In this document: piece after piece, positions 42,001-62,513 of the stretch
Layout: each line of letters begins with the position of its first letter
How positions within the stretch are numbered: position 1 is the stretch's first letter
Assembly: GCA_022818135.1 (NCBI GenBank)
Contig: JAFMSR010000003.1
Span: forward strand, 16,529,381-16,593,380
From: Saxidomus purpurata
Lineage: Eukaryota > Mollusca > Bivalvia > Venerida > Veneridae
DNA: 64,000 nucleotides
Direction of reading: 5' to 3'
Program-made: the position numbers and the translations under genes
Notes under the pieces: model-generated
Seen by the model: only the letters and a program-made list of their open reading frames with translations
Told to the model about the DNA's origin: nothing
The model's database searches: none

Positions 42001-42412
42001 TTCAGAAAATTACATAATGCTTATGTGGACATGTTGTGCAATCCTTTTTACATTCCTGGAGAAAATATTACTTCAAAGTAAGTTGATAGATTTAATAGTG
42101 TAAATTAAATATCAGCAGTACTTAATTAAAATGCTGTTGAAGCAGAAATTGAACGGCTGTATACCTCGGAAATCTGTCAAATAAAGGAGGTAGAAGTAGA
42201 TTTAAAAATTTACTCACTGGAACAAAAGGAAAATGTTTTTCTATACTTCACATTTGCCCCTCAATGTCAGACAACAGTTTTGAACATACACTAGAGATGT
42301 AAAAATTGTTCTAATGTTGAAATTGTAGTCAGTATTGGATATCATCTTAAATTGTGTCGATTTTTGCTTCAGAACATTCAACAACACTGTGATATCAATG
42401 ATGCAAGAGTGA
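39050..42412 (+). CDS. TRAPPC2L: TRAPPC2L, TRAPP complex subunit 2-like
   Basis: Five exons (39050-39082, 39517-39689, 41273-41360, 41998-42077, 42373-42412) encode about 137 residues, close to the 139-140 of vertebrate TRAPPC2L. The protein is a small longin-fold subunit of the TRAPP tethering complexes acting in ER-Golgi and Golgi traffic. Diagnostic stretches are the start [14 protein letters not shown], then [45 protein letters not shown] and CNPFYIPGE. Reading phases join correctly at every GT-AG junction and no stop interrupts. The start is fixed by the conserved N-terminus. An AG at 38956-38957 could open an exon with 5' UTR. A pearl-like element lies just upstream and another repeat fills intron 2. 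Confidence 0.95.
39517..39689 (+). CDS. TRAPPC2L: TRAPPC2L exon 2
   Basis: The acceptor TTGTAG precedes it. It encodes 57 residues from [10 protein letters not shown] to YPTEDYK plus two bases of the next Val codon. The donor is GTATCC, a weak match, but the phase fits exon 3 exactly. Confidence 0.92.
39780..40682 (+). mobile_element. Repeat with CCCCCCGCC/GGCGGGGGG ends in TRAPPC2L intron 2
   Basis: The left end tccccccgccaaagg pairs with the right end cccggcggggggatta. After a ccgtccgtccgtccatcc stretch come three tandem units of about 155-165 bp, each containing agcataactccaaaagtact and actgacatagcacattggta. The tail is accatgtgtaacatggctct. It has the same head-core-tail plan as the pearl-like elements but a different sequence. 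Confidence 0.7.
41273..41360 (+). CDS. TRAPPC2L: TRAPPC2L exon 3
   Basis: It completes the split Val codon and encodes [18 protein letters not shown] and then [11 protein letters not shown]. The donor GTGAGT follows. Confidence 0.93.
41998..42077 (+). CDS. TRAPPC2L: TRAPPC2L exon 4
   Basis: It encodes [20 protein letters not shown] and then GENITS, plus two bases of a Lys codon. The acceptor is TTTCAG and the donor GTAAGT. Confidence 0.93.
42373..42412 (+). CDS. TRAPPC2L: TRAPPC2L exon 5 and stop
   Basis: It completes the Lys codon and encodes [12 protein letters not shown] followed by TGA. The residues correspond to the AFDNMVTSMM-like end of the vertebrate protein. Confidence 0.9.
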
Positions 42413-42769
42413 CCATGTGATGTGTATATAATAGACAGTACTCAAGGTGGTCGTCAGCTTATGTACATAACTTGTTTGACGAGCCTGCTCAAACAGGCTG
42501 AAGTGTTTAACTTCAGTGAAAATGAAGTAATGCCCATGAAAAAAAACTGAAGTAAACTTAGTTTTTACAGCTTTTAGTGATGATGGCTAACGATGAAGAC
42601 TCCAATGTTCCTCGTCTGTTTGCTTGCAGGTGTGTTTGTGTTTTCAATTATCAGTATGGATGGGTAGTCTGCCATACATAATTTCATTTTATAGGACTTT
42701 TTTTTCTTAATATGTAATGTGAAAATGTGCAAATGTGCAACGTTTATTATTATAGAGTTTTAAAAGTGC

Positions 42770-42775
42770 AATAAA
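42770..42775 (+). terminator. Probable TRAPPC2L polyadenylation signal
   Basis: AATAAA lies about 360 bp past the stop codon, in AT-rich sequence and ahead of the next repeat. The cleavage site cannot be placed from sequence alone. Confidence 0.5.
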
Positions 42776-42989
42776 AACTTTGAACAGTGGATCAGGTCAT
42801 AAAATAAATTGTTTAAAATTAAATTGCTCAGTTTTATGATTGCCAGGTCAATAGCTGGAATCCAAACATTTAGGGACCCCTTTTAGGTTCTAACCTTGGC
42901 GTGACATATGGAAAAGTGATCCACAAGTATTACCCTTCCGCTTCGAAGGCAGGTGATATGAAAATGAGTCTATTGGAGTTGAATTTTAG

Positions 42990-43125
42990 ATATGTCCACC
43001 TAGGAGGTGTCATGGTCAAGAGTCACTGACTTTACATCCACATTAACCCTTTCATTGACTGAGGGTCATGGGTTTGAAGCCCTGCTACTAATCATGTCTC
43101 TTTATGTGAGAAAGTTGGCAGTTTT
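42990..43125 (+). mobile_element. SINE copy downstream of TRAPPC2L
   Basis: A tRNA-like head (tgtcatggtcaagagtcactg, then a gggtcatgggtttgaagccc B box) runs into atgtgagaaagttggcag. The same order, reversed, occurs at 47676 and 54236. Its 3' end is cut off by the next repeat at 43130. Confidence 0.6.
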
Positions 43126-43129
43126 TTTG

Positions 43130-43925
43130 TTGAGCCGCTTGCGAAAGCTCGATATAATTGTCCAAATGGCAGTTCGGTGTATGTGCGTCCGTCCGTCTGT
43201 GAGTTTAGTTTGTTCGAGCATATCTTCTTCATGCATGGAGGGATTTTGATGTAACTTGGTACAAATGTTAACCATCATGAGACGGAGTGTCATCCGCAAG
43301 AACCAGGTCCCTAGGTCTAAGGTCAAGGTCACCCTTAGAGGTTAAAGGTCAAATTCAAGAGTGACTTTGTCCGGAGCATATCTTCTTCATGCATGGAGGG
43401 ATTTTGATGTAACATGGTACAAATGTTCACCCTCTTGAGACAGAATGTCGTGCGCAAGAACCAGGACCCTAGGTCTAAGGTCAAGGTCACACTTGGAGGT
43501 TAAAGGTCAAATTCAAGAATGACTTTGTCCGGAGCATATCTACTTTATGCATGGAGGGATTTTGATGTAACTTGGTACAAATGTTCACCATTATAAGATA
43601 GAGTGTCATGCACAAGAACCAGGTGCCTAGTTCCAAGGTCAAGGTCACACTTAGAGCCCAAAGGTCAGATGCAAGAATAATTCAAGAATGATTTGTCCAG
43701 AGCATTTCTTCTTCATGCATAGAGGGATTTTGATGTTACATGGCACAAATGTTCACCACCATGAGACTGAGTGTCATGCGCAAGAACCAGGTCCCTAGGT
43801 CTAAGGTCAAGGTCACACTTGGAGGTTAAAGGTCAAATTCAAGAATATCTTTGTCCGAAGTTTCTTCTTCATGCATGGAGGGATTTTGATGTAACTTGGC
43901 ACAATTGTTCACCACCATGAGCTTC
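43130..43925 (+). mobile_element. Element with five ~158-bp internal repeats
   Basis: The head ttgagccgcttgcgaaagct is followed by a gcgtccgtccgtctgtgag stretch. Five units carry gagcatatcttcttcatgca and aaggtcaaggtcac, starting near 43216, 43374, 43532, 43700 and 43858. This is another bivalve-type repeat with an internal satellite core. Confidence 0.7.
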
Positions 43926-44740
43926 CCTTGTTTTTTAGAATTACTTCCCTTTGTTGTTACTATAAATAGCTTATTATTGTAACTGTTTTGTTACTTGCTG
44001 TAGAGTAAAATCGAGACCACTTTTCTGTGGTACAACATGCATGGTACATCCAATATTTAGGTGTATTTTGACATATCTCTACTTAAAAAAGGAGTTAGTC
44101 CTTTTGACAGCTGGCAGGCTCGGCATGTTGCGCGTGGGCATCTAGTTTGGCCTTGTGGTTTCAGAGAAGATTTTTAACGGTTTTCCTATATAAGCCTATG
44201 TAAAATCAAGTGACCCCCGGGACAGGGTCAATTTAAAATTGGGGGTCATAATTTGAATAACCTTGGTAGAGGTTCACTAGGCAATGCTGCATATCTAAGC
44301 TTTAGGCCATGTGTTTTCAGAGAAGAAGATTGTTAAAGTTTTTCCTGTTTGTTGCCATGGCAACCCAAGTTCTGCATGGAACATAATTTTAAGCAAGGAA
44401 CAAGGTTTCATCAACACTAATTAGGATTTTGAAGAAATTATGGTGCTAGAGTTTAAACACAGTTCAATATTGCAATATTGGCACAATTGTTCACCATCAT
44501 GAGGCTACCCTTGTTTTTAGAATTACTTCCCTTTGTTGTTACTATAAATAGCTTATATTGTAACATTTTTATTACTGGCCGTAGAGAAAAATCGAGACCA
44601 CTTTTCTGTGGTACAACATGCATGTTACATCCAATATTTAGGTGTATTTTGACCCATCTCTGCATGGTAAAGAGTTAGCCCTTTTGACATATGGCGAGCT
44701 TGACATGTTGCACGTGGGCATCTAGTGTTAAATTAGGGGC
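43926..44740 (+). repeat. Direct duplication (~235 bp) split by an inverted pearl-like fragment
   Basis: The block starting ttgttttttagaattacttc (about 43929-44155) recurs at about 44508-44732 with high identity, including gagaccacttttctgtggta. Between the copies (about 44150-44420) lies an inverted pearl-like fragment (caaaattgg/gggggtcataatttgaa, then tctgcatggaacata). This is nested insertion of one repeat into another. Confidence 0.6.
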
Positions 44741-45113
44741 CATAACTCTGGAAGAACTAATCCAATCAAGCCCATAATTGAACTCATAAAGGATCTTATG
44801 GTCATATACATTCTCTGTAAATATGGTTAGAGTTAGAGAAGAAATGACGGTCCTCAAGTGTAAACATAGTCAAATATTGCATTTTTTGTTAAATCAGGGG
44901 CCATAATTCAGGAAGTACTGATCAAATTAAACCAGTAATCGAACTCATCCGAGGTATTGTGGCCATATACATGTACATGGTATTCAAGCTTCATTATGAT
45001 TGTTTTTAAAATGTAGATGCTCGAATGTAAACAAACTAATTGTGGATGGACGGACTACGGACATTCAATGTCCTAAAATCTCACCATGACCATTCTGTGG
45101 TCAGGTGAGCTAA
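44741..45113 (-). mobile_element. Minus-oriented repeat with GTCC-rich head
   Basis: On the minus strand it starts with the hairpin agctcacctgaccacagaat, then gacattgaatgtccgtagtc. Two related units follow, each with a ggggccataa...aagtactgatc pattern. Confidence 0.5.
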
Positions 45114-45118
45114 AAAGG

Positions 45119-46385
45119 GACGAGGTGGCCCTATAATGCTCAACACATTGCAACACAGATCAGACCTGCATTTTTAACGTGGGCTATGAAGGTGTAACTG
45201 GGATAAATTCTTAATCAGCTATCAAAATATAACCTCATGACAACACGAGGTTTATTGTTGACTTGACCTAGTGACCTTATTTTGATCCAACATGAACATT
45301 TCAAACTTCATGTCGAGTTCATTAGGAAAAACATTTTGATTAATTATCAGGATGGATACAAAATGTGGCTTCTCAATGTGAGGACAACTGACACTGGGTA
45401 ATTAGAAAAGCTCCTCTTGAGCTTTAGTGAGCTTAAAAGTAGATATGATCAAAGAGTCATCCCAAAAGAAAGTCATTACTCCTGTATTTTCAAACTTATA
45501 TTTCATATGAGACACATTATATGTTTAACACACATAAATCGGATGGTACACAGAACATACAATTGATCTACATAAACATGTATAAAACAAACTTCATTAA
45601 AGGTCACAGTGTCTAGCTGTTAGATTTTGACCCACATTTTATAAAATATTGGCAACATCAAATGTGATAAATAACTGGATGTTACAATAACAATTGAAAA
45701 GAAGTTGAGTATACTGAATAGACAATCATTTATGATGAGTATTTTAAATCTGGAATTATCTGACATAGTGAATGTATATAATCCGGTCTGGGGTGTATAC
45801 ATGGTTGATATTCAGAAAATGAAATTTTATCGTGCATTCTTGAAATTAGTACTTCAGTGTTGCTAAATATTAGTGTAGTCTATGAACAGTTTCCATTTGA
45901 CAATATGGGTACTCTGCTCTCCAATTAGAAATTTTATTATGTTTTATACATTGTATAAACATTTCAATGAATACTCCTCAAATTTTGAGCAGTCAGGAAA
46001 TGTATAGGAGCTTCAGTCCCATATGTACAATTGAAGAATTCAAAAACTTTTTCTGTTTGTTGCATTCACAAAATACATTATTGAAAATGTCACGTTTTAT
46101 GTAGTTACCACATCTTCACTGTGATGGGATATGGCTTTTTGTCTCACATAATTATGATTGTGTGTATATTGAATGAGAGGCGACACACTTTCTGATCAAC
46201 AGCAACAACAAAATACCAACCATTGCTAGTAGATGAAAAGATAAGTTTGTGTCTTTGTATTGTAGCTGACATTAAATTTGGCTTGTTAATTTCACTTCGA
46301 CCAAGTGTTGTTTGCAACACACTGTGTAAATAAATCAAGTCTGGTTTTTATTGTTTCAGAAATACAACTGTTTATAAGTGTACAG
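45119..46385. repeat. ~1.25-kb repeat, copy A, 3' of TOP1
   Basis: 45119-45608 matches 62702-63140 in the same orientation (shared blocks include gcaacacagatcagacctgc and ggtacacagaacatacaatt). 45615-46385 matches 63145-63845 in inverted orientation (shared ggcaacatcaaatgtgataa and ttaccacatcttcactgtga). It begins about 750 bp beyond the TOP1 stop codon. It may be a mobile element or duplicated gene flank. Confidence 0.7.
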
Positions 46386-47139
46386 TATCACAGAATATCA
46401 TATACATATGAATGCATAATTATATCACAATTTAAATATCACAAATTGCTTTCACATTATCACATATATTCACTTGAATCTTGTCACAATATAATTATAA
46501 TTTAATTAAATGCAACAATCACATTTCATATCTATGAGACAGTAATTACATCACATGAAAATATCATATATATATATAATATAAGAGTTTAATGATTGTT
46601 GTGATCTAACAAGGTGACCTGTTCCACAAAGAGCAACCCATAAAGCAAAAGGATCTGGATCAAAAACTTGTTACATTCGGGATAGCAAATGCACCTTCAT
46701 TGCTGTTAAAACATTGTTCTATAATGATAAGCATTATTTTTGGACACAAAATGACCCATGTAAACTGGGGCTAAAGCATTTTTAATCTTTAAAACATGAC
46801 AGAGAATATTCTGTTGAATCTATTCTACATGTTCTTTAACAGGTAACCAGTTGAGTTATCTAAAATGTATTGCGTCTATAGGATTTCTACAGTTCAAATC
46901 AAGTACAAACCCAATTAACTTGTTCTGAGTGACTTGTTACTAAAATAACTGTCTTGTTTTAATATGAGAAAGAACTTTGGTTACATAAATAATTGTAAGA
47001 ACCTAAGATTCTGTTTCTTATCACCTATAAATTCAACTAGTAAAATACAAATAATTTGCTCAGTGCATGATTTTAGTATAATTTTGTGTCCCTTCACTGA
47101 AGTACACAAACAAGCAAAACAAAATATACTAATGAAATG

Positions 47140-47242
47140 TTAAAATCTAAAATCAGCTTCTGCCATATCAATTGCCCATTTGAATTTCTCTCTATGAAAT
47201 TTGTTGTAAACTTTTTCCACTGGTACTTCCCACTTCTTACAC
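47140..47242 (-). CDS. TOP1: TOP1-like exon 13 and stop
   Basis: It completes the Trp codon and encodes [20 protein letters not shown], then [13 protein letters not shown] and TAA. This is the conserved TOP1 C-terminus. The intron before it is about 4.3 kb and full of repeats. Confidence 0.93.
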
Positions 47243-50200
47243 CTGTAAACAGACAAATCAAGAACATTTCCTGAAACCACAATGCCTAGAGCTTAGTTTA
47301 TTGGCATGTATCATTGCCTGGTTGATCTCTATTAAGATTGTTGAAATCATGACGCCCAGGTCAGAATTGACCCTGCCTGAGGAGCAACTAATTTAACATA
47401 GGCTTATACAAGGAAAACTTCAAAATGCTTTTTGTCTAGAACCACTAGGCCCAGAGCTTAGATTTTTGGTATATAGCATTGTGTAATGGACCTCTATGCT
47501 TAAATCAGAACCCCGAAGGTCAAAATTGACCCTTTCTGCTACTGATGACCTTGTTTTATAGCCAATGGTAGTCAGGTGAGCGATATAGGGTCATCTTTGC
47601 TCTCTTGTTCAATGATTGTTTTGATTTGGTTTTTGAGTTTAACACCCTTTTTCAACAATATTTCAGTCATATACAGGCAGGCAGTTTACTTAACTACTGT
47701 TCCTGGGAAGAACCAGTACTAGACCCATATCCTACATTAAAAACTGCCAACTTTCTCACAGAAAAGAGATCATGGTCAGTAACACAGCTTGAACCAATGA
47801 CCCTCAATCTGTGAGAGGTTTTGTGATTACAAGTCAGCAACCATAACCACATGACCACAGAGGTGGTCCTCTATGATGGTGTATCATAAACAAACTTGAC
47901 CTTTATTTATTACAAGGCAGAAGCCTGCTGTATGACAAATGTAAAACAAGAGCACCGCCTGCGGATGCCTGACGCTCGTCTGATTTCATCCTTCTAAGTT
48001 TATTTATCACCATTTTTTAAGTAACAGTGTCCTTGACCTTGGCCCCAGAACACAATCCCACAAAAGGTTTAAAATTTCATAATAATAACTAGACACTAAG
48101 TTTCGTCACAATAATTAAACTGCAACTAAAGATGTTGTTTTTTTTCTCCATTTTTCTATTTTTAGAAAAAATCCTGGACTTTAACCCCATGAGCCCCAAA
48201 CACAATCCCAATTAATTAAAAAGTCTTTATTCATATGTATTACACATTTAATAATTTAAAAAGTTACATTATGTCAGTTGTAACAAAAGATATTGAACAT
48301 ATTACTGTTTTTTCTATTTTTAGTGAGTGACCTTGACAATGACCCCAGGAGTCCCAAAACCCAGCCCTATCTTCTTAAATACTTACTACAAACAAAAGTT
48401 GGTTACATTATGTCAACTGTAACTAAAGATATTGAATATAATACAGTTTTCCTATTTTTAGTAACAGTGACCTTGATCCCAGGAGCCCTAAAATACAATC
48501 CAATTAAAGATATTCATAAATATTTCTTATACACTAAGTTTGGTTGCATTATGTTGACTGTTACAAATATTGTGTGTGTGAAACTTTCTCAGTTTAGAAG
48601 GGGCAATAATCCAGCCAAATAAATTACAGGGTTATGTAACTTGTAAAATTCTTCATTTATACTATTGTACATTTGATAGTGAACAGGTATTCCAAAGTTT
48701 CAAAGTGACAGCTTTGATAGTTTGCATGTAAGTGACCCAAGCACAAAACTTAAACAAGAGGGCCATGATGGCCCTGTATCGCTCACCTGTCTACCATTGG
48801 CAAAAATAAAAGGTTATTAATAGCAGAAAGGATCAATTTTTACCTTTGGCTCATGATATCCTCTTAATAACCCTATGTAAAATCAAAAGACCCCCGCAGG
48901 CAGGGTTAATTTTGAACCTGAGGTCATGATTTGAACAATCTTGGTAGAGAGTCAATTATTGCCACATGCTGAATATCTAAGCTCTAGGCCTCATTATTTT
49001 GCTGTCTGATCATGATCTGCACTGTTGGCTATTCATTTTTTTGCTGTCTGATCATGATCTGCACTGTAAGCTATTCATTGTATGTTGGCTGGTCATGATA
49101 TGCACTGTCAGCTATTTATTTTTTGCTGTCTGATCATGATCTGCACTGTTTGCTATGCATTATTTAGCTGTCTGATCATGATCTGCACTTTCATTATTTT
49201 GCTGTCTGATCATGATCTGCACTTTCATTATTAAGCTGTCTGATCATGATCTGCACTGTAAGCTATTCATTATTTTGCTGTCTGATCATGATCTGCACTG
49301 TAAGCTATTCATTATTTTGCTGTCTGATCATGATCTGCACTGTAAGCTATTCATTATTTTGCTGTCTGATCATGATCTGCACTGTAAGCTATTCATTATT
49401 TTTCTGTCTGACCATGATCTGCACTGTAAGCTATTCATTATTTTGCTGTCTGATCATGATCTGCACTGTAAGCTATTCATTATTTTGCTGTCTGATCATG
49501 ATCTGCACTGTGAGCTATTCAATTTTTTAACAATTTATGGTACTTTCCAAAGTGATAGATACAACTACATTTTTTGTACCAAAATCTTTAACATGGAAGT
49601 TCAACTAGGGGTCAAGAACATGTATTGCATCATCGCTATTTAAAACTTTATATAAGTGCCAATTTTAGGCCAGAGTTTTTATATTGCTTGGTTTATGGGA
49701 AGTTTTCTAAAATATTGAGTATGAAGGACTTTTCCTACTATATTGAACAGAGCACATATTGAACATCAGTCTACTGCGCCTGTCAATAATCATCATTTTC
49801 GAACAAAATAAACACTTTAAAATAATTACTTTCAATTTTATATCCCTACTATTCTGACACTTCATTAACTAGTCTGTGTAGTCTGAACAGCGGAAATAAT
49901 AAAAATAAAATGTCAGTTCATAATGTCATTGTTATTCTACCTTTTCAAAAAATAGGACAGGCAGTCGCATAAACCAAGAGATATAAAAACTCTGGCCTTA
50001 CCATAGAGAGATGATTACAAGACAAATGTCATTTATCAATCTTATATGGTGTTAAAATACTGCAATAAAATTAGCAAATGAGGTGTTCAATAAACAACAC
50101 ATTATTAAAACTAGAAATCATCAAAACAACCTTTCTGACAAATTTCAAGGATATCTGGGCTGAAAATGTAACATCTAGAGTGTTAACAAGGTTTTTCCAT

Positions 50201-53200
50201 ATTTGGGCTCTGTGACCTAGTTTTTGACCCCAGATGACCCATATTCGAACTTGGGCTAGAAATCATCTTAACAACCTTTCTGACAAATTTCCAGGATATT
50301 TGGGCTGAAAATGTTACCTCTAGAGTGTTAACAAGGTGTTTCCATATTTGGGGTGTGTGACCTAGTTTTTGACCCCAGGTGACCCATATTAAAACTTGAG
50401 CTAGAAATCAACCAAACAACCTTTCTGACAAATTTCAAGGATATTTGGACTGAAACAGTAGCCTCTAGAGCCTTAACAAGATTTTTCTATTTTTGGGCTC
50501 TGTGACCTAGTTTTTGACCCCAGATGACCCATATTCGAACTCGTCCGAGTAATTACTGGGACAAACATCCTGACCAAGTTTCGTGACAATTGAGGAAAAA
50601 ATGTGACCACTAGAGTGTTAACGAACTAAATGTGGACGGACGACGGACATTCATCGATCCTAATAGCTCACCCTGAGCCAGCTCAGGTGAGCTAAAAATC
50701 AGACTAGCTAAAAATTACAAAGTCCAAAAATACTAAAATATCCCCCACCCTCCCCCTCCCCTTCCAAATGTGTGACTCAAAAACCTGTTTGATATATAGA
50801 AGTGCATTATCCATTTGTTGTCTGTGAAAAAATCTGAAATCAACCTAACAAAAATTGAAGAAGCTATCTCCAATTCTCAAAATCAACCAAAATCCATCAA
50901 AATTCATGTTTTTTACCCAAAAAAACAGGTGAGACTCAGCATCTTTAGGGTACAATGTGAAGAAGGGTATTAGATGAACTAGTTCCCCAGATTTCAAAGT
51001 GATAGCTTTGATAGTTTCCATGTAAGTGACCTAAACTCAAAACTTAACTAACGCCTCCAACGACGCCGACGACAATCAAGTGACGACAATAGCTCATCAT
51101 TTTTTTCAAAAATCAGACGAGCTAAAAATGTAAATTGCTAATTTTCACGAATGAAGCACTTCGCACATTCATCAAACTTGCTTAAACAGCAAACAAACAT
51201 TGAACAAACAGTATTTGATTGCAAATTTAAGATCTGGCTTCAAAATAGAAAATTTGAAAATCATGGCAAATATAAAGACATTTACAGTAAGCAATTGACC
51301 CTAAAATTACTCGGGATATAATGACTGGAACTGTGACACACTTGCCTCTAAATTTGTGTAAGTAACGAGTCAATAAATTTCAATGTTGACCTCCAACAAT
51401 CTTTATCTGGGCATAAACTGACCACAGCAAAGTTCAGTGTCATGTGACAGGTTGGTGATTTTATGATATCTAGTTTTTATCAAAAGTACCATGATACATA
51501 CTAGTACCCCACCCAAAATATTTAACTACCGACCACTATTATGTAACAATGTATAAATCAACATACCAGGCGACAGTGACCCTTGGATCTACAAAGTGAA
51601 GCTTTGAGGTTCCCAGAGCAATCTCTTTGTTATCCTCCTTGTCCGTACCCTGTACCTCCAATTTTGTATCTGGATAGTTAAGATTGGAGGTTTCCAGAGC
51701 AATTTCTTTGTTCCTGTCCATGTCCGAGGCCTGTACCTCCAACTTTGGATCTGAGCTGTTATGCTTGGAGGTTCCCAGAGCAATTTCTTTGTTCTCAACG
51801 TTGTCCGTGGCCTGTACCTCCAACTTTGACTTTAGGTTTCAAAACAAAAAAGTTTCTATATACAGGGCCTAATTTCTAAAACAATTCAAGGGCTGGGTGT
51901 GGATAAGAGAAAGAGTGATCATTAAATGATTTAAGCCAATTACAATTGAATTTTGATAACCAGTTGCAGAGAAATAGAATTATAATGTTTTCATATTGAA
52001 TACAGAAGAAAATAACAATTAAAGGGATACTAAGCCAATCTTGGCTAAAGTTGTGTGTGCGCCGTGGCATTATGCTAATGTATACTTACCTTAAATTTCC
52101 TGAAATTTTATCTATTGGTTACTTAGTAATGACTCGGGACGGCAAACTCAAGGAAAATGCCAAAACAATATCCCTATGCCTTTGGCGTAGGATAATAAAG
52201 AAGTACATGTAACACAAATGTTGTAATTTTGCAAAATCACTGCACTTTCAAAGTGAATTAATTTCGATTACATTATGAAATTTTTATGTGCCAAGTTTCA
52301 GGATCTCATAAAACAAGTGAAAGAAATAAACCAGCTGGCTTTATAAAAATTAGCAGCTTGGAGATAAAGTATCTTCAAAATAACATGAATTGTATACCGT
52401 ATAATCATACATTTGCCATTTTATTTTCCATCTGTTTGCTGAAGTTTTTCAGAGCTGCACGTTGATGCTTACACAGAATGGACTCAGCACAACTTTTTGC
52501 ACGGTTGTAACTCAACATCTTTGCAGGCATTGGGTCTTCCTCTATAACAAGATGTAAACAATATCTAGCATTAAACAAAAACAGCTTGAATTCTAGCCCA
52601 GTGAGATAAAGAATTTATATTTCCAAGGGCTATTAAACTCTACCTTGCTGGAGACAAAAAAAAAATACAAAAGGGTAATTCTCTCATACTAAATCTATGT
52701 GAAATGAATCTTTCGTGATTATTTTAAATTAACAAAGTGGGAAATTTGCAAAGAAAATAGTGAAAATAAAATCATCATAATGTCAGTATTATGGGAAAAT
52801 TAAAGTCTACAAAAGTATTACCCAATTTACAGTAAATGTTCACCACACTTGTATCTAAGATAAGTTTATACAATGGTAATGTCCGATTTAAAATATGGGC
52901 AAGTCAATTTTAGCAATTAAGGATGGTAAGTATATATATTATCACGAAGCAGGAACGTACCATTTGTCATGAGATCAAGCTGTTCCTGTAAGATTTTGGA
53001 GGCATTGTAAGTAAGGAACACCTTGGCTGTGAGTCCCTTCATCAAGTCCTGAAGATGCTTGTTCAAGATGGCTGTCTGTAATATGTACATATTAGAAAAT
53101 ATAAACCTGAAACTATCAAGTTTTTTAAAACGAACCAGTATTGTTTTTGACTTTATCTTTCTTTATCTTAAAACAAATGTAACTGCAAGTACATATTGCC

Positions 53201-56200
53201 AACTGTAAGTTTCTGCAGGTCTAATCAAGCTATTTATTAGACAAAGAAAAAAATCAATATGCTGAAAAAAGTATGTTACATGATTGTATCGAGAAGTAGT
53301 ATATTTTTCTAAATTATTTAAAATAAGTGGGCGTCCTTCTCTGAAGGTAAAAAGGTTGACTTCAAAACTATTATTTAAGGTATGGGGCAAAGAAATGGTA
53401 CAAATTGTGGCCTGAAATATTTTGGTCAATCCTTGAAAATTATTTTGTTTCGAGTCAACCAACCCAGAGTTGTTAGGACAACAGGTACAAAGTAGGTGCT
53501 TTTTTATTTATTCAATCATTTCTTTACACTGAGACATGGAATATTTCCTCCCTAAATATATCCTGCATGAATAAAAACAAAAAACTGGCAGTACTTACAT
53601 TCAGTCGATTTAAAAACAATTAATCTTCGGGCTGTTTTTTATCCATAAACAGTAGATGGCAGTACTTACATTCAGTCGATCAAACAAATCATCTCCGGGC
53701 TGTTTGTTATCCACAAACATCTGTAGATTCTTAAACACCCTCTTTTCTACCGGCACAGCATTCTGGGTTCGTATAGAATCCTTTCCGAGGAAATCAAATT
53801 CTACTACATTTGCTTTTCCATCTTTTTCTTCATGAAGAGTTATATGTTTGACACGTAGGGAGCAGCAACTGAAAGTATCAGCTGTTCCGCCCTCTTCCTT
53901 CTCGTTACCAACTCTCATTGCCAACTATTTCAGACAAATGCACATAATTTAATGTAACCTTTTTAGAAAATGTAACTTTGTCCTGTGTGTGACCCAAAAT
54001 CAGTTTTCAAAATGATATGACTAATCTTACAGTGACAAATTAATGAACATGTATAAAGGGAAATGCCACTGCCTGATTTGATTCTGATGATGAAATGGTC
54101 CTCAAAACAAATGCAAAATATTCAATTTTACCTTTTCTGTATTTAAATTAACCTTTTCTGTATTTATTTAAACCTTTTCTGGGACTTTCATACTACATAA
54201 ACTGAAAGCAACCATGTTGTAGAAGTAATACTAGTTAAGGCAGTTTACCTAACCATCATTCCTAGGAAGAACCAGTACTCGAATCATATCATCTATAAGA
54301 AAACTGCCAACTTTCTCACATAAAGAGATAGGGTCGGTAGAGGGGCTAACCCATGACCCTCAATCTTTAAGAGGTTACACTGATTTCAAGTTAGTGACTC
54401 TTACCACATGACCATGGAGGCAGATAGAAAGAGTAAATACAAAATGCCTTGTTCAATCCCTTACTTTATCAATGAAGTACATAGCAACAGCCCTCTGACA
54501 GATTCTCATCTCCTTGGATTTCCAGTCTTCCTGGTAGTTGGCTCGGATCTTGTCAATACACTTGTGTAGTTGCCGAGCAGTCTCATACTTCCGCCAATCT
54601 ATTTCTCCTTTCAATTTTGATTCTGCGTGCAACATCACATACTTGATCTGACCCTGAATGTTGTCATTCCAACTGACCAACCATATTACCTACAATAAAG
54701 AATACCCTGCTCTGTTTCATGTTCTCGGATAAGCTCCGTTTATAAGATTCTAAATTCCACCCAGCTACAAATATGCAAAACTAGTGAAAAATTGCTGGTT
54801 CTTTCTCTCAAAGTGATTGGTATGACCACTGGCCGTGTCTGGATAGCTCCAAGTTAGTTGATATAATTACTTTCACAAACAAGCTAAATCAAATGAGTAC
54901 ATGCAAAATACACACTAACTTGTAATTTTTCTGATGCTCCAATCAGTTATTTTTAGAAAAAGAAACCATAAACTTTTCTATTAAAAATAGACATCTTAGC
55001 AGATTGTAAATGTCAAATACAAATAGCATGAACTTTGTAAATGAGCAACTATCCTATTCAACATAAAATCCTTGTCAATCAGCTGCTTAGTTATAGCCTA
55101 CGACTTTCTTGGTTTAAATTACTACTGTGCATCTGAACTCCAAAACATGGTTTAAAGACTATGAACACCGCTAAAATGAATACTATTTCTTAATTTTAAG
55201 ACTCTGATATTGCTTTACCATTACTTATCTAAGTTATTCTATTGACCAAACTTACTCGATTTGATTTGATGAGAATTTTATCAAGGTCCGTCCCAAAGAG
55301 CATGTATGTTAGCTTAATATTGGGATGAGACCCCGGCATGTCTCCCGTCATGCCTAAAAGACAAAATTTTGAAGCCAAAAAATAGGAGAAATTTACTTGA
55401 CTGCAATTTCCAGCCAGTATAGCCAAAGGTTTAATTTGATTGGTTGCCAAAGAGTAGGCCAGTCACGGCGACCAATGAGATCTGAGACCAAACTTACTCT
55501 TCCACTCCTTACCTTATATAGACATTCTATTTTTAGAACAATTGATCACATGACTAACTTTCACTCTTGGCTAGCTTTAGAATGTTAATTTAGATTTATT
55601 CTTTACATCTCCGATGAAGACCTGAGAAAAGTGGAAACATTGGACAATTAAAACTTAGTTAACCCTAATTGGTATTGATGTATGTTCCACTTTTTGTTAA
55701 TTTTTTGTGATGCTTTTCCAAAACCCTAATTAGTGTTCTTAAATTTAACTGAAATTAAATTCAGCAGCTACTCAAAAACTTTCTGCTCTAAATATCTGAT
55801 GACAATTTTACTCTATAATGCTAAAATTTCCAAACTTACTGTATTGTCATGTTGCACTCTCTTCCATTTGTGACCCTTTGGAGGTGCTGGAATTTTTGAA
55901 TCCCTTAAAATGGACAGGTTTTGAAAACTTTAATTCAGACTAGACAAAAGCAGGGAAGTATAAACGTGGCATTGTTTAACAATTAATGTTTTCAAATAAA
56001 AACACAGATATCTAATTAGAAGTCTAATAATATATATTTCATATCATGGCTCTTTTTTCCAAAATTTCACTAAGCAAAGGGCCGTAACTATGTATATATG
56101 GCAAAATTGCATCACACTTAAACTGTAAATCATAGAAATTTTACTAAGAAATTTTATTACCCAAAGTGAATTCATGACACATTAATTTGCACAGAAATAA

Positions 56201-59200
56201 ATGTGCTTGGACCAAGTTATTTTTAAAACTTTATGTTGTGATTTTTTCACTTTTAAAAAAAGTCTTATTATCTATTTTGACCTCCAACTTTCTTTTCAAA
56301 TCTTCAATACAATAAAACTTTAAACTCACTTGCTACAGTTGATGATAACATCCTCTGGCTGGACTCTCCTCTTCAACATTCCCTGTTTGGGGTGGTCACC
56401 TCGTCCTCTGAATAGCCCTGGAGGGTCAATCTTGAAGTTACCAATCCTTTGTTTGTGCCCATCCATGATACAGAAACCATATTCCTCTTGTAAACGTGCA
56501 TTATCTTCTTTCAATTGCTGCATGTGAATAAAGGAAATTAGCATAAACACTGATGACTTAATTCCTCAGAAAAAAGGAGATTTTTTTCTATAGGAGGTGT
56601 GTTTCCAGTTTCCTGACCGACCTTGACCTTTTACTATCAACCTCAAACCTTTTTTTATCAGAAAATGATCAAAAAGAACAAAGTGCTTCAGAGGAGACTT
56701 GTGCAATCTAGTGATTTTCTCTTTACATTTCCATCCTATTATTACATTTTTCTTGGCTCACCTCTTTTTCTTCCTTGGGCCTGTTTCTCCTCTTTTCTAA
56801 TTCCAGCTTAAAATGCTTGTACATCTCTTGAAAGTTACACTTCTTAAGATCTTTGATTGTTTCACGTTCACGTGGAGTCATCATCTAACAAATGCATCAA
56901 AGATACTCAGCAAAAAGTGACCGATACCACCCCTTCAAACACACAACATAAAACTACTACGTCCTCTGAGATGAACAATGTATTTGTCACTGTCAGGTGA
57001 ATGGATCAGTCTTTAAAAAAGCTTACTTTTTAGTATTCATATCAGAAAATTTTACCTTCTATAAATTTTCTTTAAAATCATGCAGACTTCATTCGCACAC
57101 TGTGACTTAACACCAGGATTTAAGTTTTGCCTTCAGCTAACTATCACTTAAATTTCCCCCAAATTGAGGGACTAGTGTGGCTTCCCCGAACTTGGAAAAA
57201 TTGCCCTGCAAATTACCTTTCTCCAGTCCTGGAAGAAGTTAGTGTTGAATACTTCTTTTGATGTATAATTTTCTTCCAATATCTTGGCATAGAACATAGC
57301 CACTTCCTCTGCCTCAACACTTAATACCATAGGTTCACCTAGAAAACAACAGCATTGAATTAAAGAAGTCTTAAAGCCAACCCACATTTCAAAAGAAAGC
57401 TTAAAAGCTGGCCATCCGGTTTAGAAATAGATACCTTATGTGCCAACCTCCGGCAAAAGAATGCTAGCAAATTGCAAAACCTTATCTAAAGCATTTAGTG
57501 CTAAATATACGGGCTAAATAAAGTCATTCAAGCAGAACATTCTGATACAGAGACTGGAAAGTATGAAACAAAAATTGGCCAACAGTTGGAACAGAAAAAC
57601 TGAAATCAAAATTAGGGAGAGACTTAGAGAGAAACAAACATTTATACATATTAACCTTAAGAGTTTATTGCTACCCCGCGCTTGAGATATTTAAAGTTCT
57701 GTCACTTAAATTGGCTTAATCATACCGTCATAGTAAAATCTGACATCTTTTGGAATGGGGCTCGTAATCTGGAGCAAACACTGGTCCTTTATGCTCAAGG
57801 AATTTCCACTTCTCCTGACTGTCCTGTTTCTTTTCCTCCCACCACTTCCATACTTCCTGAAATCATTTCTAGCAAGTATTTGATATGTTACATGTGAAAA
57901 AAATGAGCAGAAAATCATCTTCTTTTTTTTTGTCAGATATTTTTGGGTCCCTGGTTTTTGTTATTTTTTCAAAGAAAACAGTGTTAAGAAGATAAAAGCG
58001 GATGATAATACAATGTTTTCATTTAACAAACGTGTACAAGTAATTCACAGTTGACATGACATTGTGTTTTAACACCAGTCCAATAATTATTTGACATTAA
58101 GCTTATTTCTTCATATCACTGACTCCAGTAGATTCTATATTTTTTTCTTCTAAAAATATTCTTCTCAAAGTTTTAAAACCTTGTAACACAATGAGATAAC
58201 ATCTTTCTACTCTACATGCATGTTTCAGTTAAAATAAAATTATTAAAATTGATTATTCAGCGATTGTGTTTATATATAAAAAATATACCTGGTAGTAGCA
58301 TTAAATACTGATATATATGTTGCTGTTATAGACACATAAGGTGACAGTTGTTGGTGACATCGTGATATTCAGACCTGATCCACATTATAAAATATGGGAC
58401 TTCAGTTCCTAAAATAAAACCATACAGGAACCCCTGCAAAATTTTCACTCATCAAGATCTACCCTTAATTGCATGATAAATGCTTTGACAGTAATTATTT
58501 CTTTGCACAAACATTTTCTCAATAACAAAGAAGAAAGGGCAATATTCATACTCATGCTTTTAAAAATTTGTGACAATATCAAAATGTCCCCAACGAGACC
58601 AAGCTACCCACCAATGGTACATCATCCTTGTCACTTTTAGGCTCTTCCATCAATGGTTTTGGCAGTGTTGCTTTCACTTGAGAATTATGTTCACTCTTAA
58701 CTGGCGACTGTAGCTCTCTCTTAACCATCACCATCTCTGACTGTTCTCTTTCTTTACTTTCTTTTTCTTTCCGTTCATGTCTTTCTTTTTCTTTCCTTTT
58801 CTGTCCCTGTTTTTCTTTTAGCTCCTGTATTTCCTTTTCTTTAAACTCACTTCGTTCTTTCTCTTTATCTTCATCCAAATTCTCATTCTTGCTTTTAGAA
58901 TCTGAACTATTGTATTTTGAACTGCTTGAACTGTGCTTGCTTTTATGCTCATGATCCTTGTCCTTTTCACGGTCCTTATCCCGATGCTTATCTGAGGACG
59001 AATGTTTGCTTCTTGAACTTGAACTGTGTTTACTCTTCTCAGAAGACCCGTGTCTATCCTTGTCTTTATCAGAAGAAGTGTGTCTATCCTTGTCTTTACT
59101 GCTGCTGTGGCCACTACCCGAGCCGTGTTCATCTTTACTGCTTGACGAGTGGCTGTCTATATGTTTGTGTGTGCTGCTGCTATTACTGGAATGACAGTGT

Positions 59201-61008
59201 TTACTTGAGCTTGATGAGTCATGCTTTGAGCTGCTTGAGCTTGAACTATGTTTGTATTTGTCTGAGCTGCTCGATGAACTAGACTTATGTTTGTCTGAAC
59301 TGGAACTGTGCTTTGACTTTTCCCGTTCTCTGTCCCTGTCATCTTCTCTATTCATTTCTTTAAAAATTAAATTGTAGATTAGTAATTTTCTAGCACACAG
59401 GACTAAACCTTACTAGTTAAAGTTAATATTGATACAACCTGTGGGTACATTTGTTAGCAAGATGATCAAGATGGTACTGTATCACTCACTTGATTACATG
59501 ACCCACATATGCCTAAATGTGACCAAAATTCAACTTTAATATTGATAATACCAATTATCATGAAGATTGCATAGTAAATGTGGCGAGTACATGTCAACAA
59601 GGTTTTTCTCTGATTTGACTGTGTGACCTTGTTTCTAACTCCAGAGTACAGATGACCAAGATCTGAACTAATATAATTAACCTAGAAACCATTGATACAA
59701 ACATTCTGCCCAATTTTCATAATGATTAGATGGTAAATGTGGTGACTCTAGAATGTAACCAAGGTAACCCAGATTCGAACTTGACCTTGTACATTCTGAC
59801 CAATTTTCATGATGACAAGGTTGTAAATGAGGCCTATATGGTAATGGTAAGAATTTTATATAATTTGACCTGGTGACCTAGTTTTTATCCCAAAATAACC
59901 CATATTTGAACCTGACATAGATTTATCAAGAAAGTCATTCTGACCAAATTTCATTATGCTCCAGTGAAAACATTATGACCCATATTCAAACTTGACCTAG
60001 ATTTCATTCAGACATTCATGCAATCTGACAAAGTTTCTAGAAAATCCAATGAAAAATGCGACCTTTATTAATTGCATACACAAGGTTATTATATGATTTG
60101 ATGTGCTGACCAAATTTTTTACCAAAATGACCCATATTCAAACTCGACCTAGACTTTATCAAGGCACCCATTCTGACCGAGTTTCATGAAGATACAGTGA
60201 GAACATGGAGAAAGGCAGCCTTTTTTTGCATACACAAGTTTAAGTATGGATGGATTGACGGGCGGCTGCCATCTAGCGATCACAATTTAATAGCTTACCA
60301 CAAAGTGCTCGGGTGAGCTGAAAATCAATGAAAAATAAATACACGTGTATTGTCTGCTGGCAGAGGAATTTCATTGTAATTCAATCAATAGGCGGTAAAC
60401 AGTTATGTTTGCCAAATAGTTATATTTGCTATGCTTCTTACACAATGCAGTTTCTCATTGTTATTAAGTTTTGCTGGGCTGCCATAAAAATGATTTGCCT
60501 ACAAAAAATTATTACAGAGTTGTGTTTTTGGGATATTCCACATTCACTGTCACCTTCTATTTAAGGTTCTACTGGATCAAATTCAAAAGGTCTAATTAAT
60601 TAGCAACAGCTAGAAGCAGGCTAACTTATATACTTCAATGAAGCTCATGTTTTTTTTGTTTGCATGTCTTTTTATTGAATTATATCTATTTTCAAAATTA
60701 ACTGGCACAAATCACAGGTAGCCGGTGCGGGGTATGGACCCCCATCCCCGCAGATGCCCCTCTACAAGTACAGCCCTGGTACCCCATATACTGATATATT
60801 AAATCAATTTTTTTTTCTATTGTTTTGTTTTAGTATATGGGGTACCAGGATTGTTGAGGGGCCTCTGGGGGGATGGGGGTCCAAACCCCACGCTGGCTAC
60901 CTGTGGCACAAATTTGAACTGTTTGGCCTCCAGGCTAAAAAATTTTAAGTGTTGTTTTTCACCAAAAAATAAATAGGCAAGTTCCTTACCAGATTCTGTT
61001 GAATCCAT
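47140..61008 (-). CDS. TOP1: DNA topoisomerase I-like gene with altered active site (13 exons)
   Basis: TOP1 relaxes supercoils by a transient 3'-phosphotyrosine link. Exons in transcript order: 61008-60990, 59357-58612, 57856-57726, 57338-57217, 56884-56762, 56517-56330, 55903-55840, 54689-54465, 53924-53670, 53075-52961, 52541-52411, 51829-51567 and 47242-47140. Together they give about 827 residues once one frameshift is discounted (human 765). The N-terminus is a Ser/Lys/His/Asp-rich tail. The core follows ([59 protein letters not shown]), and the C-terminus ends [11 protein letters not shown]. Human R488, K532 and H632 equivalents are kept. R590 is Leu, the Y723 segment is triplicated with Phe in the last copy, and no linker exon is found. 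It could be a divergent paralogue, a young pseudogene, or partly misassembled. Family membership is certain; function is doubtful. Confidence 0.9.
47268..47608 (+). mobile_element. Pearl-like element, short copy
   Basis: It carries two partial units (cctagagcttagtttattgg and cccagagcttagatttttgg) and the tail caggtgagcgatatagggtc ending gctctcttg. It starts only about 25 bp from the exon 13 acceptor, inside the last TOP1 intron. Confidence 0.6.
47676..47873 (-). mobile_element. SINE, reversed, in the last TOP1 intron
   Basis: On the minus strand the head is ggtcatgtggttatggttgc and the B-box region gggtcattggttcaagc. Then come gtgagaaagttggcag and ctagtactggttcttccc, with the same body order as the other copies of this family. 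Confidence 0.65.
47945..48610 (-). mobile_element. Degenerate element with ~150-bp units
   Basis: It begins aaacaagagcaccgcctgcg. Four or so diverged units contain tgaccttgac and cccagga/ccccaga, ending near ggggcaataatccagccaaa. The 109-codon plus-strand frame inside is a by-product of these units. Confidence 0.5.
48753..48990 (-). mobile_element. Pearl-like element fragment, reversed
   Basis: It begins aacaagagggccatgatggc and cctgtatcgctcacctg, the complement of the pearl-like tail, and continues with one partial unit containing gaatatctaagctctaggcc. It is cut by the 42-bp minisatellite. Confidence 0.6.
48997..49526 (+). repeat. 42-bp minisatellite, 13 units with GATCATGATC
   Basis: The palindrome gatcatgatc (or close) recurs at 49008, 49050, 49091, 49132, 49174, 49208, 49242, 49284, 49326, 49368, 49410, 49452 and 49494. 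Spacing is 42 bp except for two 34-bp units. Because 42 is a multiple of three, long frames (up to 143 codons) run through it; they are not evidence of a gene. It lies in the last TOP1 intron. Confidence 0.9.
50100..50697 (-). mobile_element. Repeat with four ~150-bp units and hairpin head
   Basis: Units contain acctttctgacaaatttc and gacctagtttttgacccc. The right end, gtggacggacgacggacatt then agctcaccctgagccagctc, is the hairpin head on the minus strand. It is in the last TOP1 intron, in the style of the pearl-like elements. Confidence 0.65.
51567..51829 (-). CDS. TOP1: TOP1-like exon 12: triplicated active-site segment
   Basis: It encodes 87 residues made of three tandem 27-codon units (51826-51746, 51745-51665, 51664-51584), each of the form KLEVQ-x-D-x-NKEIAL-x-TS. 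They end [16 protein letters not shown] and SKLHFVDP, followed by RVTVA and a split Trp codon. The catalytic Tyr position is Ser, Tyr and Phe in turn. The acceptor could also be 51823, which changes only the first two residues. Confidence 0.9.
51890..52195 (-). mobile_element. Inverted copy of the 12165 repeat in a TOP1 intron
   Basis: On the minus strand it reads tacgccaaaggcatagggat, then gccgtcccgagtcattacta and cagcgcacacacaacttt-like sequence, in the same order as 12165-12490. It fills most of the intron between exons 11 and 12, leaving no room for a coiled-coil linker exon. Confidence 0.7.
52411..52541 (-). CDS. TOP1: TOP1-like exon 11: catalytic His region
   Basis: It encodes [20 protein letters not shown], then [16 protein letters not shown] and MENKMAN. 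The catalytic His is kept (codon 52467-52465). The block between SYNRA and ILC is KSCAES, one residue longer than NRAVA of typical TOP1. Confidence 0.88.
52961..53075 (-). CDS. TOP1: TOP1-like exon 10: Leu at the catalytic Arg590 position
   Basis: It encodes [20 protein letters not shown], then [10 protein letters not shown] and EQLDLMTN. The family has KVFRTYNAS here. The codon at 53015-53013 is CTT (Leu), one base from CGT (Arg). Confidence 0.9.
53586..53727 (-). repeat. 71-bp tandem duplication across exon 9 end
   Basis: 53586-53656 and 53657-53727 are tandem copies. The right one holds the true 3' end of exon 9 and its donor. The left one has decayed, with an in-frame TAA where the exon reads GDDLF, but it keeps a donor-like GTAAGT at about 53598. 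Confidence 0.8.
53670..53924 (-). CDS. TOP1: TOP1-like exon 9: catalytic Arg and Lys
   Basis: It encodes 85 residues. [17 protein letters not shown] holds the human R488 equivalent (codon 53915-53913), and [11 protein letters not shown] the K532 equivalent. It ends DDLFDRLN at the donor GTAAGT. Its last 58 bases and donor lie in a 71-bp tandem duplication. Confidence 0.93.
54236..54424 (-). mobile_element. SINE, reversed, next to exon 8 donor
   Basis: It has the same family order as 47676-47873: a tRNA-like head (catgtggtaagagtcacta on the minus strand), B-box region gggtcatgggttagcc, then gtgagaaagttggcag and gtactggttcttcc. Confidence 0.65.
54465..54689 (-). CDS. TOP1: TOP1-like exon 8
   Basis: It encodes 75 residues starting [20 protein letters not shown] and ending [11 protein letters not shown]. 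This is core subdomain III entry, well conserved. A SINE ends about 40 bp past its donor. Confidence 0.93.
55840..55903 (-). CDS. TOP1: TOP1-like exon 7
   Basis: It encodes [20 protein letters not shown] and then NT, the conserved P-P-GHKW segment. The donor is GTAAGT. Confidence 0.92.
56330..56517 (-). CDS. TOP1: TOP1-like exon 6
   Basis: It encodes 62 residues including [40 protein letters not shown] and [12 protein letters not shown]. The Arg equivalent to human R364 is present. Confidence 0.93.
56762..56884 (-). CDS. TOP1: TOP1-like exon 5
   Basis: It encodes 41 residues, [20 protein letters not shown] onward, ending PKEEKE. It is in phase 0 on both sides and conserved with the TOP1 core (KCxFxxM). 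Confidence 0.9.
57217..57338 (-). CDS. TOP1: TOP1-like exon 4
   Basis: It completes the split Gly codon and encodes [20 protein letters not shown], then a segment ending NFFQDWRK, as in the TOP1 core. The donor is GTAATT. Confidence 0.9.
57726..57856 (-). CDS. TOP1: TOP1-like exon 3, with a 1-base frameshift
   Basis: It starts [20 protein letters not shown], then [13 protein letters not shown], a strong TOP1 match. Past a CCCC run (57757-57760) the conserved continuation [11 protein letters not shown] is in the next frame. Read straight, translation meets a stop within nine codons. The exon's 3' phase fits exon 4 only with the shift. It is either a homopolymer error or a real lesion. Confidence 0.85.
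58612..59357 (-). CDS. TOP1: TOP1-like exon 2: Ser/Lys-rich N-terminal domain
   Basis: It encodes 248 residues of low complexity: Ser runs mixed with KH, DK and SK, then an E/K-rich stretch, ending KSDKDDVPL. This charged, disordered region carries nuclear and nucleolar targeting in known TOP1. The donor GTGGGT (just after Leu) is chosen because only that phase leads into exon 3. The plus-strand frames here are shadows of the repeats. Confidence 0.85.
59450..60325 (-). mobile_element. Degenerate repeat with ~150-bp units in TOP1 intron 1
   Basis: Units contain attctgaccaatttcat and tgacccatattcaaactt. The right end, ggattgacgggcggctgcca then accacaaagtgctcgggtga, is the degraded head hairpin on the minus strand. 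It has the same plan as 50100-50697. Confidence 0.6.
60713..60905. mobile_element. Foldback MITE with 8-bp TSD in TOP1 intron 1
   Basis: The arms of about 78 bp, cacaggtagcc... and ...ggctacctgtg, are near-complements around a T-rich loop. The flanks are the perfect 8-bp repeat gcacaaat at 60705-60712 and 60906-60913. The terminal CACAGGT and 8-bp duplication match the element at 476-1435. Confidence 0.85.
60990..61008 (-). CDS. TOP1: TOP1-like exon 1 (coding part)
   Basis: It encodes MDSTES plus one base of a Glu codon, then the donor GTAAGG. The short acidic start is usual for TOP1. A 193-bp MITE sits 77 bp into the following intron. Confidence 0.7.
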
Positions 61009-61520
61009 CTATACTGGTAGGCTAGCTACTAAAGCTCCCTGAAAATCGGAAACGTGTTATAAATAATCAGTAAATTAAGTATGAAAAATAATTATTGCAC
61101 CATTGTCGAGATATCTGTTCTATTTATCGTGTTTAAAATCACAGGCATAAAATAATACAAATATTTTTGGATTCAGAAAACGGAAAAGTCCGCATACTGG
61201 TAGCGTCCGCTTACTGGTCCGGTCTATCAATAACAATGTAATGTTTACATGTCAAAATGTGCAACCGTCAGCTGTTTTTCAGGTCGTTTCTCTAAATAAA
61301 CATAACAACCCCCAAAGAGTTTGGTGTTAATTGTTTGGGGATTCATGCCTCTAAACATCAATACTAACAAATTTACATGACTCTTCGCTTTTCGAGAAAT
61401 ATTCTGCAAAATTAAGTCCGCGCAACTGTCATATCGAGAAATCCGAGGATATATTACCGGATTCCGTACTGTATACCGGATTTTGCGTCGCCTAAATGTT
61501 AAACTTGTATTTTGAAAAAA
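61009..61520 (-). promoter_or_regulatory. Likely TOP1 5' UTR and promoter region
   Basis: It lies just upstream of the start codon and is richer in CpG than its surroundings (for example ttaccggattccgtactg and gcgtccgcttactgg). No TATA box is evident and the transcription start cannot be placed. Placement is by position only. Confidence 0.3.
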
Positions 61521-61899
61521 TGCTTAGTGCGACATAAATTTGATTACGGGGCCCTTAATCTTATAAAAAGTATTTTTTATACCGTTTAAATTACTTCTTG
61601 AAAATGTGATGTTATATCTAAAGAGCTAACTATATTATTGAATTTTTACCTATTATTCCATTAAACACGAACAAAATATGACACTTAAATGAACTTAGAT
61701 TACAAAATATAATATTCTGTATACCTGATGGTGTGTTAAGTGTTTTTACAAGTGGACTGACAACACTTTTATCACTGCCTGCTGCTGCAAGTCAAAGTAA
61801 TTTATACATGCAAATCAATTAGTTTAACTAATAAATAGAAGAGATTCACGAACTTCAGAGCAGCCCTTGTACATGCTCATGTACTTGCACTCATACCAG

Positions 61900-62078
61900 A
61901 GTTCTTTTTGGAGCTACTTCATTTGAACATTGGGGAGGGTCATCTATGGAACATTCACGTGAAGCGTGGTTGAAATTGGTCCAGTAGTTTTTCCCCAGAA
62001 TTTGAATGGATGCCGGACATTGAGTGGTCACAAAAGCTCACCCTGAGCACAAGTGCTCTGGTGAGCTTAAACCTCTTG
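61900..62078 (-). mobile_element. Repeat fragment with hairpin head
   Basis: The right end, agctcaccctgagcacaagt then gctctggtgagctt, is a hairpin. Next to it, attgagtggtcacaa and gaatggatgccggacattg are remains of the GTCC-rich head. It matches the head style of 50100-50697. Confidence 0.5.
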
Positions 62079-62307
62079 TAATAAAAACCGTTGCTATGGA
62101 TCTTGCACATAAAAGAAGAAATGGTCAATGAAATGCAGTTGGAATTAAGAGTCAATACATCCACAAGGATCTGTTACCAGAAGTCTCGTAGGATTCCCTT
62201 GTATAAGAAAGCAAACTATATCTCTAGGTTATGCTCAACAAACATAAATATTCCGCACTAAACACTGAAGTCATGGGATAACCTTTCACAAGCCCTCAAT
62301 AGGCTAA

Positions 62308-62468
62308 CAGATGTCCACCTCAGAGGTCGCATGGTTAGAATCGCCAAATTTAAACCACTTCAACCTTTCTTTGTCCGGGGGTCATGGTTTTCTAACCCTG
62401 TTACCGACCAAGTTGGGTTCTAGTACTAGCACTGCCCAGAAATGATGGTTATGTAAACTGTGCCAATC
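62308..62468 (+). mobile_element. SINE copy upstream of TOP1
   Basis: The head is tgtccacctcagaggtcgca, with a gggggtcatggttttctaaccc B-box region, then gggttctagtactagcactg. It is degraded relative to 47676. Confidence 0.5.
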
Positions 62469-62513
62469 TAAATATGACTGAAATACGGTCGAAAGCTTAC
62501 AACAGTTGATTAG

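Follow-up and report, generated by a model that had tools for sequence, protein, structure and literature searches.

The 64-kb window analysed here (C3:16529381-16593380, in an assembly of 1.13 Gb and 4232 contigs) contains on its minus strand a TOP1 gene of 12 exons that extends from 59355 to 47140 with eleven GT-AG introns (Table 1), and the presence of these introns rules out a processed retrocopy. The translation of exons E3 to E12 matches Pfam PF02919, PF01028 and PF14370 well above the cut-offs, so that all three TOP1 domains (Topoisom_I_N, Topoisom_I and Topo_C_assoc) are present, and human TOP1 structures are matched by the same translation with an E value of about 1e-218. Human TOP1 residue numbers were taken from this structure-match alignment (offset +243). 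Using the window protein and the homologue P0003 as tblastn queries we found no canonical unit elsewhere in the 64-kb window, and an Rfam scan of the window gave 0 matches. The window gene is a copy, with a frameshift, of a second and probably inactive TOP1 gene whose segment around the catalytic Tyr has been multiplied.

Table 1. Exons, units and other features of the window gene, with the copied segment (E, exon; U, unit; positions in the window).
Feature	Positions	Strand	Basis or remark
E1, first ATG (proposed) and Ser/Lys-rich N-terminal region	58612..59355	-	open frame, GT donor
E2, core start, holds the frameshift	57726..57856	-	131 nt vs 130 nt in C12 paralogue and canonical TOP1
C run, four C vs three in C12 paralogue, one-base frameshift	57757..57760	-	sequence comparison
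E3	57217..57338	-	GT-AG
E4	56762..56884	-	GT-AG
E5	56330..56517	-	GT-AG
E6	55840..55903	-	GT-AG
E7	54465..54689	-	GT-AG; identical to C12 paralogue E7
E8	53670..53924	-	Arg488 and Lys532 equivalents retained
E9, VFLTYNAS	52961..53075	-	identical to C12 paralogue E9
Leu codon CTT at human Arg590 position	53013..53015	-	alignment to human TOP1
E10	52411..52541	-	His632 equivalent retained, one extra codon
Intron 10, without linker exon	51830..52410	-	tblastn of P0003
E11, three-unit exon	51567..51829	-	TRF, translation
U1, Ser AGC (51757-51755) at Tyr723 place	51746..51826	-	unit alignment
U2, Tyr TAT (51676-51674), in NYPDT	51665..51745	-	unit alignment
U3, Phe TTT (51595-51593), in HFVDP, runs into RVTVAW	51584..51664	-	unit alignment
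E12, C-terminal domain and stop codon	47140..47242	-	identical to C12 paralogue E12
Window part matching C12, copied segment of at least 27 kb	36743..64000	.	main blocks 91-98%

Exon E11 is built from three in-frame units of 27 codons with Ser, Tyr and Phe at the place of Tyr723. An earlier note on this DNA had described these units, and its coordinates and residues proved exact; the sequence also confirmed its statement that only U3 continues into RVTVAW, and from there to the GT donor. A TRF analysis of the exon gave a period of 81 with 3.0 copies, 80% matches and a score of 317, and the triplication is therefore not due to chance. The three units differ pairwise at 15, 16 and 18 of 81 bases. 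Counterparts were found in a paralogue on contig C12 which has six units, four with Ser, the fifth with Tyr and the last with Phe: a single mismatch separates U2 from unit 5 and U3 from unit 6, and four mismatches separate U1 from unit 1. Units 2-4 of the C12 exon are chimeras that combine the front of unit 5 with the back of unit 1, and a loss from six units would equally leave three, as in the window exon. Changes in the E11 units amounted to 5.5 synonymous and 20.5 nonsynonymous, which is a neutral ratio. Cryptic splicing inside E11 could use one frame-preserving GT-AG intron that leaves extra residues between the Tyr and DPR, and no GT-AG splice within the exon that restores the Tyr spacing was found.

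The catalytic pentad of TOP1 comprises Arg488, Lys532, Arg590, His632 and Tyr723 according to the available text of PMC9094055. Equivalents of Arg488, Lys532 and His632 are retained in the window gene and that of Arg590 is not, as the VFRTYNAS of TOP1 here reads VFLTYNAS with Leu in place of the Arg. Tyr723 is absent from the catalytic place in both the window gene and the C12 paralogue, where Phe is found. Protein homology searches gave 6928 matches (8000 candidates scored), 1185 and 348, and the best 120 of each provided 338 distinct proteins for a motif scan. Among these listed matches Tyr was present at this site in 338 of 338, and Arg590 was kept in 263 of the 264 that have the motif. The exception is P0243, a short TOP1-like record from Pan paniscus with His at this position, perhaps an annotated pseudogene. 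The Tyr537 equivalent is Thr in E8 of the window gene, at the Glu497 equivalent the window copy has Gly and the C12 paralogue Glu, and the Asn631 equivalent in E10 is Lys in the window copy only. A tblastn search with P0003 detected no linker exon in the window; the canonical linker exon sits on C12. The interval from KQMEN to KLEVQ measures 53 residues in P0003, and in the window gene its place is taken by 5 residues and two additional units (54). Loss of the linker exon, the Arg590 to Leu change and the Phe at Tyr723 are common to both paralogue copies. The Ser, Phe and Leu are older than the split of the C3 and C12 copies and are not assembly noise.

We located three TOP1 loci in the 1.13-Gb assembly: a canonical gene and a paralogue on C12, and the window gene on C3. 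A query with E8 returned three candidates, all scored, at the window, C12:27311418 and C12:27331424, and a query with P0003 gave 36 matches, none of them outside these loci (52 of 52 candidates scored); a further search scored 150 of 785 candidates. These searches covered the non-N sequence of the assembly, with stretches of N set aside. The earlier note had proposed to look for a second, canonical TOP1 in the same genome, and this gene lies at about C12:27345.6-27328.0 kb. It was read in E2-E10 and in the linker, Tyr and last exons, and keeps both Tyr and Arg590, with SKLNYLDPRISVAW and VFRTYNAS. It shares with the window gene the exon borders of E2-E10 and E12, the core and C-terminal domains and 86-87% amino-acid identity over E3-E10. 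The two differ at Arg590 and Tyr723, which the canonical gene keeps and the window gene replaces by Leu and Phe; the canonical gene also has a linker exon and a single unit, whereas the window gene lacks the linker exon and has three units and a frameshift. The C12 paralogue (27318.5-27307.8 kb) follows about 9.5 kb downstream of the canonical gene, head to tail. It has 12 exons with GT-AG introns, three C in E2, VFLTYNAS and no linker, and the sole stop among its 902 codons is the terminal one, giving an open frame of 901 codons from the proposed ATG. By its open frame and its lost catalytic residues the C12 paralogue is a candidate TOP1 pseudoenzyme. E1 of the window gene is 99% identical to E1 of the C12 paralogue and 89.6% to canonical E1, which has no ATG at the paralogue start and reads on upstream. 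For both copies of the paralogue the ATG taken as the start is thus a proposal, and a short stretch seems to have been lost there in the paralogues.

The two paralogue copies lie within a longer similarity, as the window from 36.7 to 64 kb matches C12 in its main blocks, with insertions and with two blocks out of order. The length of at least 27 kb is a lower bound, the outer border of the segment lying beyond the fetched flanks, which are partly N. The introns of the two copies differ at 109 of 5074 sites (2.1%) and by 15 indel events, a comparison that leaves out introns 3 and 11, which hold arrays. In the window a 42-bp array and a 145-bp array occupy 48750-50698 in intron 11, and their counterparts in the C12 paralogue (97% and 94%) lie in intron 3 at about 27315.1-27316.1 kb; such arrays in different introns suggest a rearrangement between the copies. 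About 1.2 kb to the left of the copied segment a satellite of 20 kb (15521-35526) contains 62.5 copies of a 320-bp unit with 99% matches. Two arrays of one 166-bp unit are found at 2325-3448 and 37637-38591, and the surroundings of the C12 TOP1 genes contain this unit several times as well.

The frameshift in E2 leads to a stop after nine altered codons. It is specific to the window copy, and both the C12 paralogue and canonical TOP1 read through. As the frameshift is situated ahead of the catalytic core, no full-length protein is expected from the window copy, which would give at most an N-terminal part. As assembled the window copy is most likely a pseudogene, and the early pseudogene that the earlier note had offered as one of its options thus finds support here in a frameshift missing from both C12 genes. 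A frameshift in a short C run could also be an assembly error. We considered a +1 frame that runs from an ATG at 57918 through E2 and bypasses the frameshift, and found it a weak candidate that is not the TOP1 frame before the shift.

Phylogenetic analysis placed the two paralogues together with a support of 100 and joined them to canonical TOP1 with a support of 99, leaving P0003 outside. The stem branch of the paralogues is 0.129 against 0.020 for the canonical gene, and 12 derived columns are common to the paralogue and canonical TOP1, compared to 0 common to canonical TOP1 and P0003 against the paralogue. Amino-acid changes in E3-E10 polarised with P0003 were divided into 39 shared by the paralogues, 4 canonical, 6 private to the C12 copy, 5 private to the window copy and 6 unassigned. 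Of 197 near-invariant columns in E3-E10 the C12 paralogue breaks 24, the window gene 23 and the canonical gene 0. Leave-one-out controls on 119 homologues, with a somewhat larger column set, gave 8 broken of 255-257 in the worst case and a median of 0. A wider deviation count of 46 of 253 columns was set aside because 14 of them belong to E2, which the query lacks, and 5 fall in the unalignable linker and unit part. Between canonical TOP1 and the C12 paralogue dS was 0.20 and dN 0.067, a ratio of 0.33 (bootstrap 0.23-0.49) that mixes a slow and a fast branch; between the C12 paralogue and the window gene dN/dS was 0.52 (0.22-1.86).

Exons of the paralogue contain 2 indels in 2197 aligned bases (E11 left out), of 6 and 3 nt, and the alignable introns have 80 gap openings in 3223 bases, from which about 27 exonic indels would be expected on the paralogue half (P = 6e-10). 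When E3-E10 and E12 were simulated under neutrality with half of the 46.5 synonymous changes (23), the mean was 4.1 stops and 2.0% of 1000 runs had none; for E3-E10 alone 1.3% of runs were free of stops. The stop-free probability varies with the number of synonymous changes put on the paralogue branch, being 0.12, 0.02 and 0.004 for 12, 23 and 34 changes (11.6%, 2.0% and 0.4% of runs), and giving the paralogue half of the synonymous changes and half of the intron indels is an assumption of these calculations. Nonsynonymous changes numbered 43-110 in the simulations (mean 73); the estimate for the paralogue branch is about 60 (67.5 times the polarised share of E3-E10 changes), and the probability of 62 or fewer is 0.27. 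The nonsynonymous count is indistinguishable from neutral and substitutions alone are no proof of constraint. Given the few indels and the lack of stops in the paralogue lineage, the frame appears to have been protected for much of the time and the catalytic residues not, and we infer that the lineage was largely held in frame while near-invariant TOP1 residues went. The private changes after the C3/C12 split are few, with synonymous to nonsynonymous counts of 3:6 and 2:5 in the two copies, and the C12 copy too may therefore be dying.

The explanation we favour, with a probability of about 0.72, is that of a catalytically dead TOP1 paralogue whose active-site segment was amplified as a coding minisatellite at the place of the linker, the window representing a decaying extra copy. 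Canonical TOP1 was duplicated head to tail on C12 after the split from the P0003 lineage, as the tree and the map show. The daughter gene shed its linker exon together with some N-terminal sequence and changed Arg590 to Leu. The segment bearing Tyr723 multiplied in steps of 27 codons, with the last unit, in the catalytic place, gaining Phe. Judging from indels and stops, selection probably kept the frame much of the time and a protein was probably made; it should then act as a non-cutting clamp on DNA or on partners, its repeats sitting at the former linker place. At a later stage the gene would have been copied to C3 within a segment of at least 27 kb, unless C3 is the other haplotype, and the C3 copy with its three units and its frameshift before the core would be a recent pseudogene. 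The dead DNA-binding paralogue that the earlier note had put forward is supported for the lineage, with DNA binding as a putative property, by the replacement of Arg590 and Tyr723 and by the 901-codon frame that stays open in the C12 copy.

Several other explanations were weighed. The C3 and C12 copies could be alternative haplotypes of a single paralogue locus, with one haplotype misplaced in the assembly; the unit number of three or six would then reflect a coding VNTR, and the frameshift would mark a null allele. A divergence of only about 2% falls within the range of bivalve heterozygosity, the difference in unit number is minisatellite-like and the flanks of both copies are only partly readable. 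The segment on C3 however continues gap-free into the 20-kb satellite on its left, for which the 60 kb of C12 gave no match where it could be read, the two array blocks lie in different introns of the two copies, and the contigs concerned are 60 and 51 Mb in size, so that we regard allelism as unlikely while still a serious contender. We would say much the same of a neutral history, where the entire paralogue lineage is a duplicated pseudogene and the C12 copy is intact by luck: the nonsynonymous counts and the unit divergence fit neutrality and many near-invariant residues are gone, but the missing stops (P about 0.02) and the finding of just two indels, both multiples of three, are hard to reconcile with it. 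It is less probable again that the window gene is a working pseudoenzyme whose frameshift comes from an error in the sequence. The exons from E3 to E12 are open with GT-AG introns and the shift amounts to one C in a run of four, yet the C12 relative has three C in the same assembly, and in E10 of the window copy two near-invariant places have private changes (N389K and P395L in the numbering of the E3-E12 protein). This last argument is weak because the C12 copy has three such private changes of its own (M129V, P150S and R324Q).

The two remaining alternatives concern E11 itself. An enzyme still active through the Tyr of unit 2, as the earlier note had envisaged, would have that Tyr and the Lys532, Arg488 and His632 equivalents at its disposal. 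It is very improbable, as Arg590 is Leu in both copies, the Tyr stands 27 residues early in NYPDT with no splice to restore the spacing, the linker is gone, and the Tyr unit is the fifth of six in the C12 copy. A local assembly error that tripled a single unit, the result by which the earlier note would have seen its observation overturned, we consider scarcely credible. Tandem repeats are prone to misassembly, but the divergence of the units from each other and their match to distinct units at a second locus argue against a collapsed single unit, and the assembly does not bear this reading out.

A dead, multiplied paralogue as we propose has partial parallels. The laboratory mutants human Y723F and yeast Y727F bind duplex DNA and do not cleave it, as Table 1 in the available text of PMC8890623 gives. 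They have Phe at the catalytic Tyr as here, whereas the present case is a natural gene in which Arg590 is also lost and the segment multiplied. Vertebrate TOP1MT is an active enzyme with its catalytic residues, whereas the paralogue lineage described here has lost two of them. In common with this lineage, TOP1MT is a retained second TOP1B gene with faster evolution than TOP1 (PMC10081982, available text). The human TOP1 pseudogenes psi1 and psi2, which derive from truncated mRNA transcripts according to the same text, are likewise non-working TOP1 copies, but the window copy keeps its introns and arose by genomic duplication. No three-unit TOP1 architecture was detected by the motif scan among the 338 listed proteins; the bivalve record P0220 (FSP39_019006, Pinctada imbricata) has two units, with the same exon region twice in tandem. 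Its copies are near-identical, include the linker helix and both have Tyr, and they may be an annotation or assembly artefact. In P0002 (Trichinella zimbabwensis) 160 core residues are tandemly repeated unchanged, probably an assembly or annotation artefact. Among the open-access papers listed in our literature searches none dealt with a natural TOP1 without Tyr or with a bivalve TOP1 duplicate.

With Phe at 723 and Arg590 gone, the C12 protein should, if made, be a non-cutting clamp. The linker contributes to controlled rotation (PMC9094055, available text), and it may have been lost because a non-cutting protein needs no such rotation. We speculate, tentatively and as something less likely than not, that the C12 gene could be a working non-catalytic TOP1 clamp with Leu 590 and Phe 723 in which the linker was swapped for a variable array of active-site segments. 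If true the frame would have been maintained for a protein that binds DNA without cutting it or competes with TOP1, and the number of units would vary from copy to copy (3 and 6). Among animal enzymes TOP1 is very conserved, as the intact near-invariant core columns of the canonical copy illustrate, and a daughter gene without two catalytic residues that is still in frame beside it would be a natural version of Y723F and would test for useful TOP1 roles beyond cutting. The canonical, the six-unit open and the three-unit frameshifted loci would then show, within a single genome, how a pseudoenzyme is born and decays and how a catalytic segment can become a coding minisatellite.

A separate tandem duplication (53586-53719, 68 bp, 1.9 copies) takes in the 3'-terminal part of E8 and the splice donor that follows it. 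The canonical gene gave no such match and the duplication is also present in the C12 paralogue; the second copy of the E8 3' end is degenerate and contains a stop.
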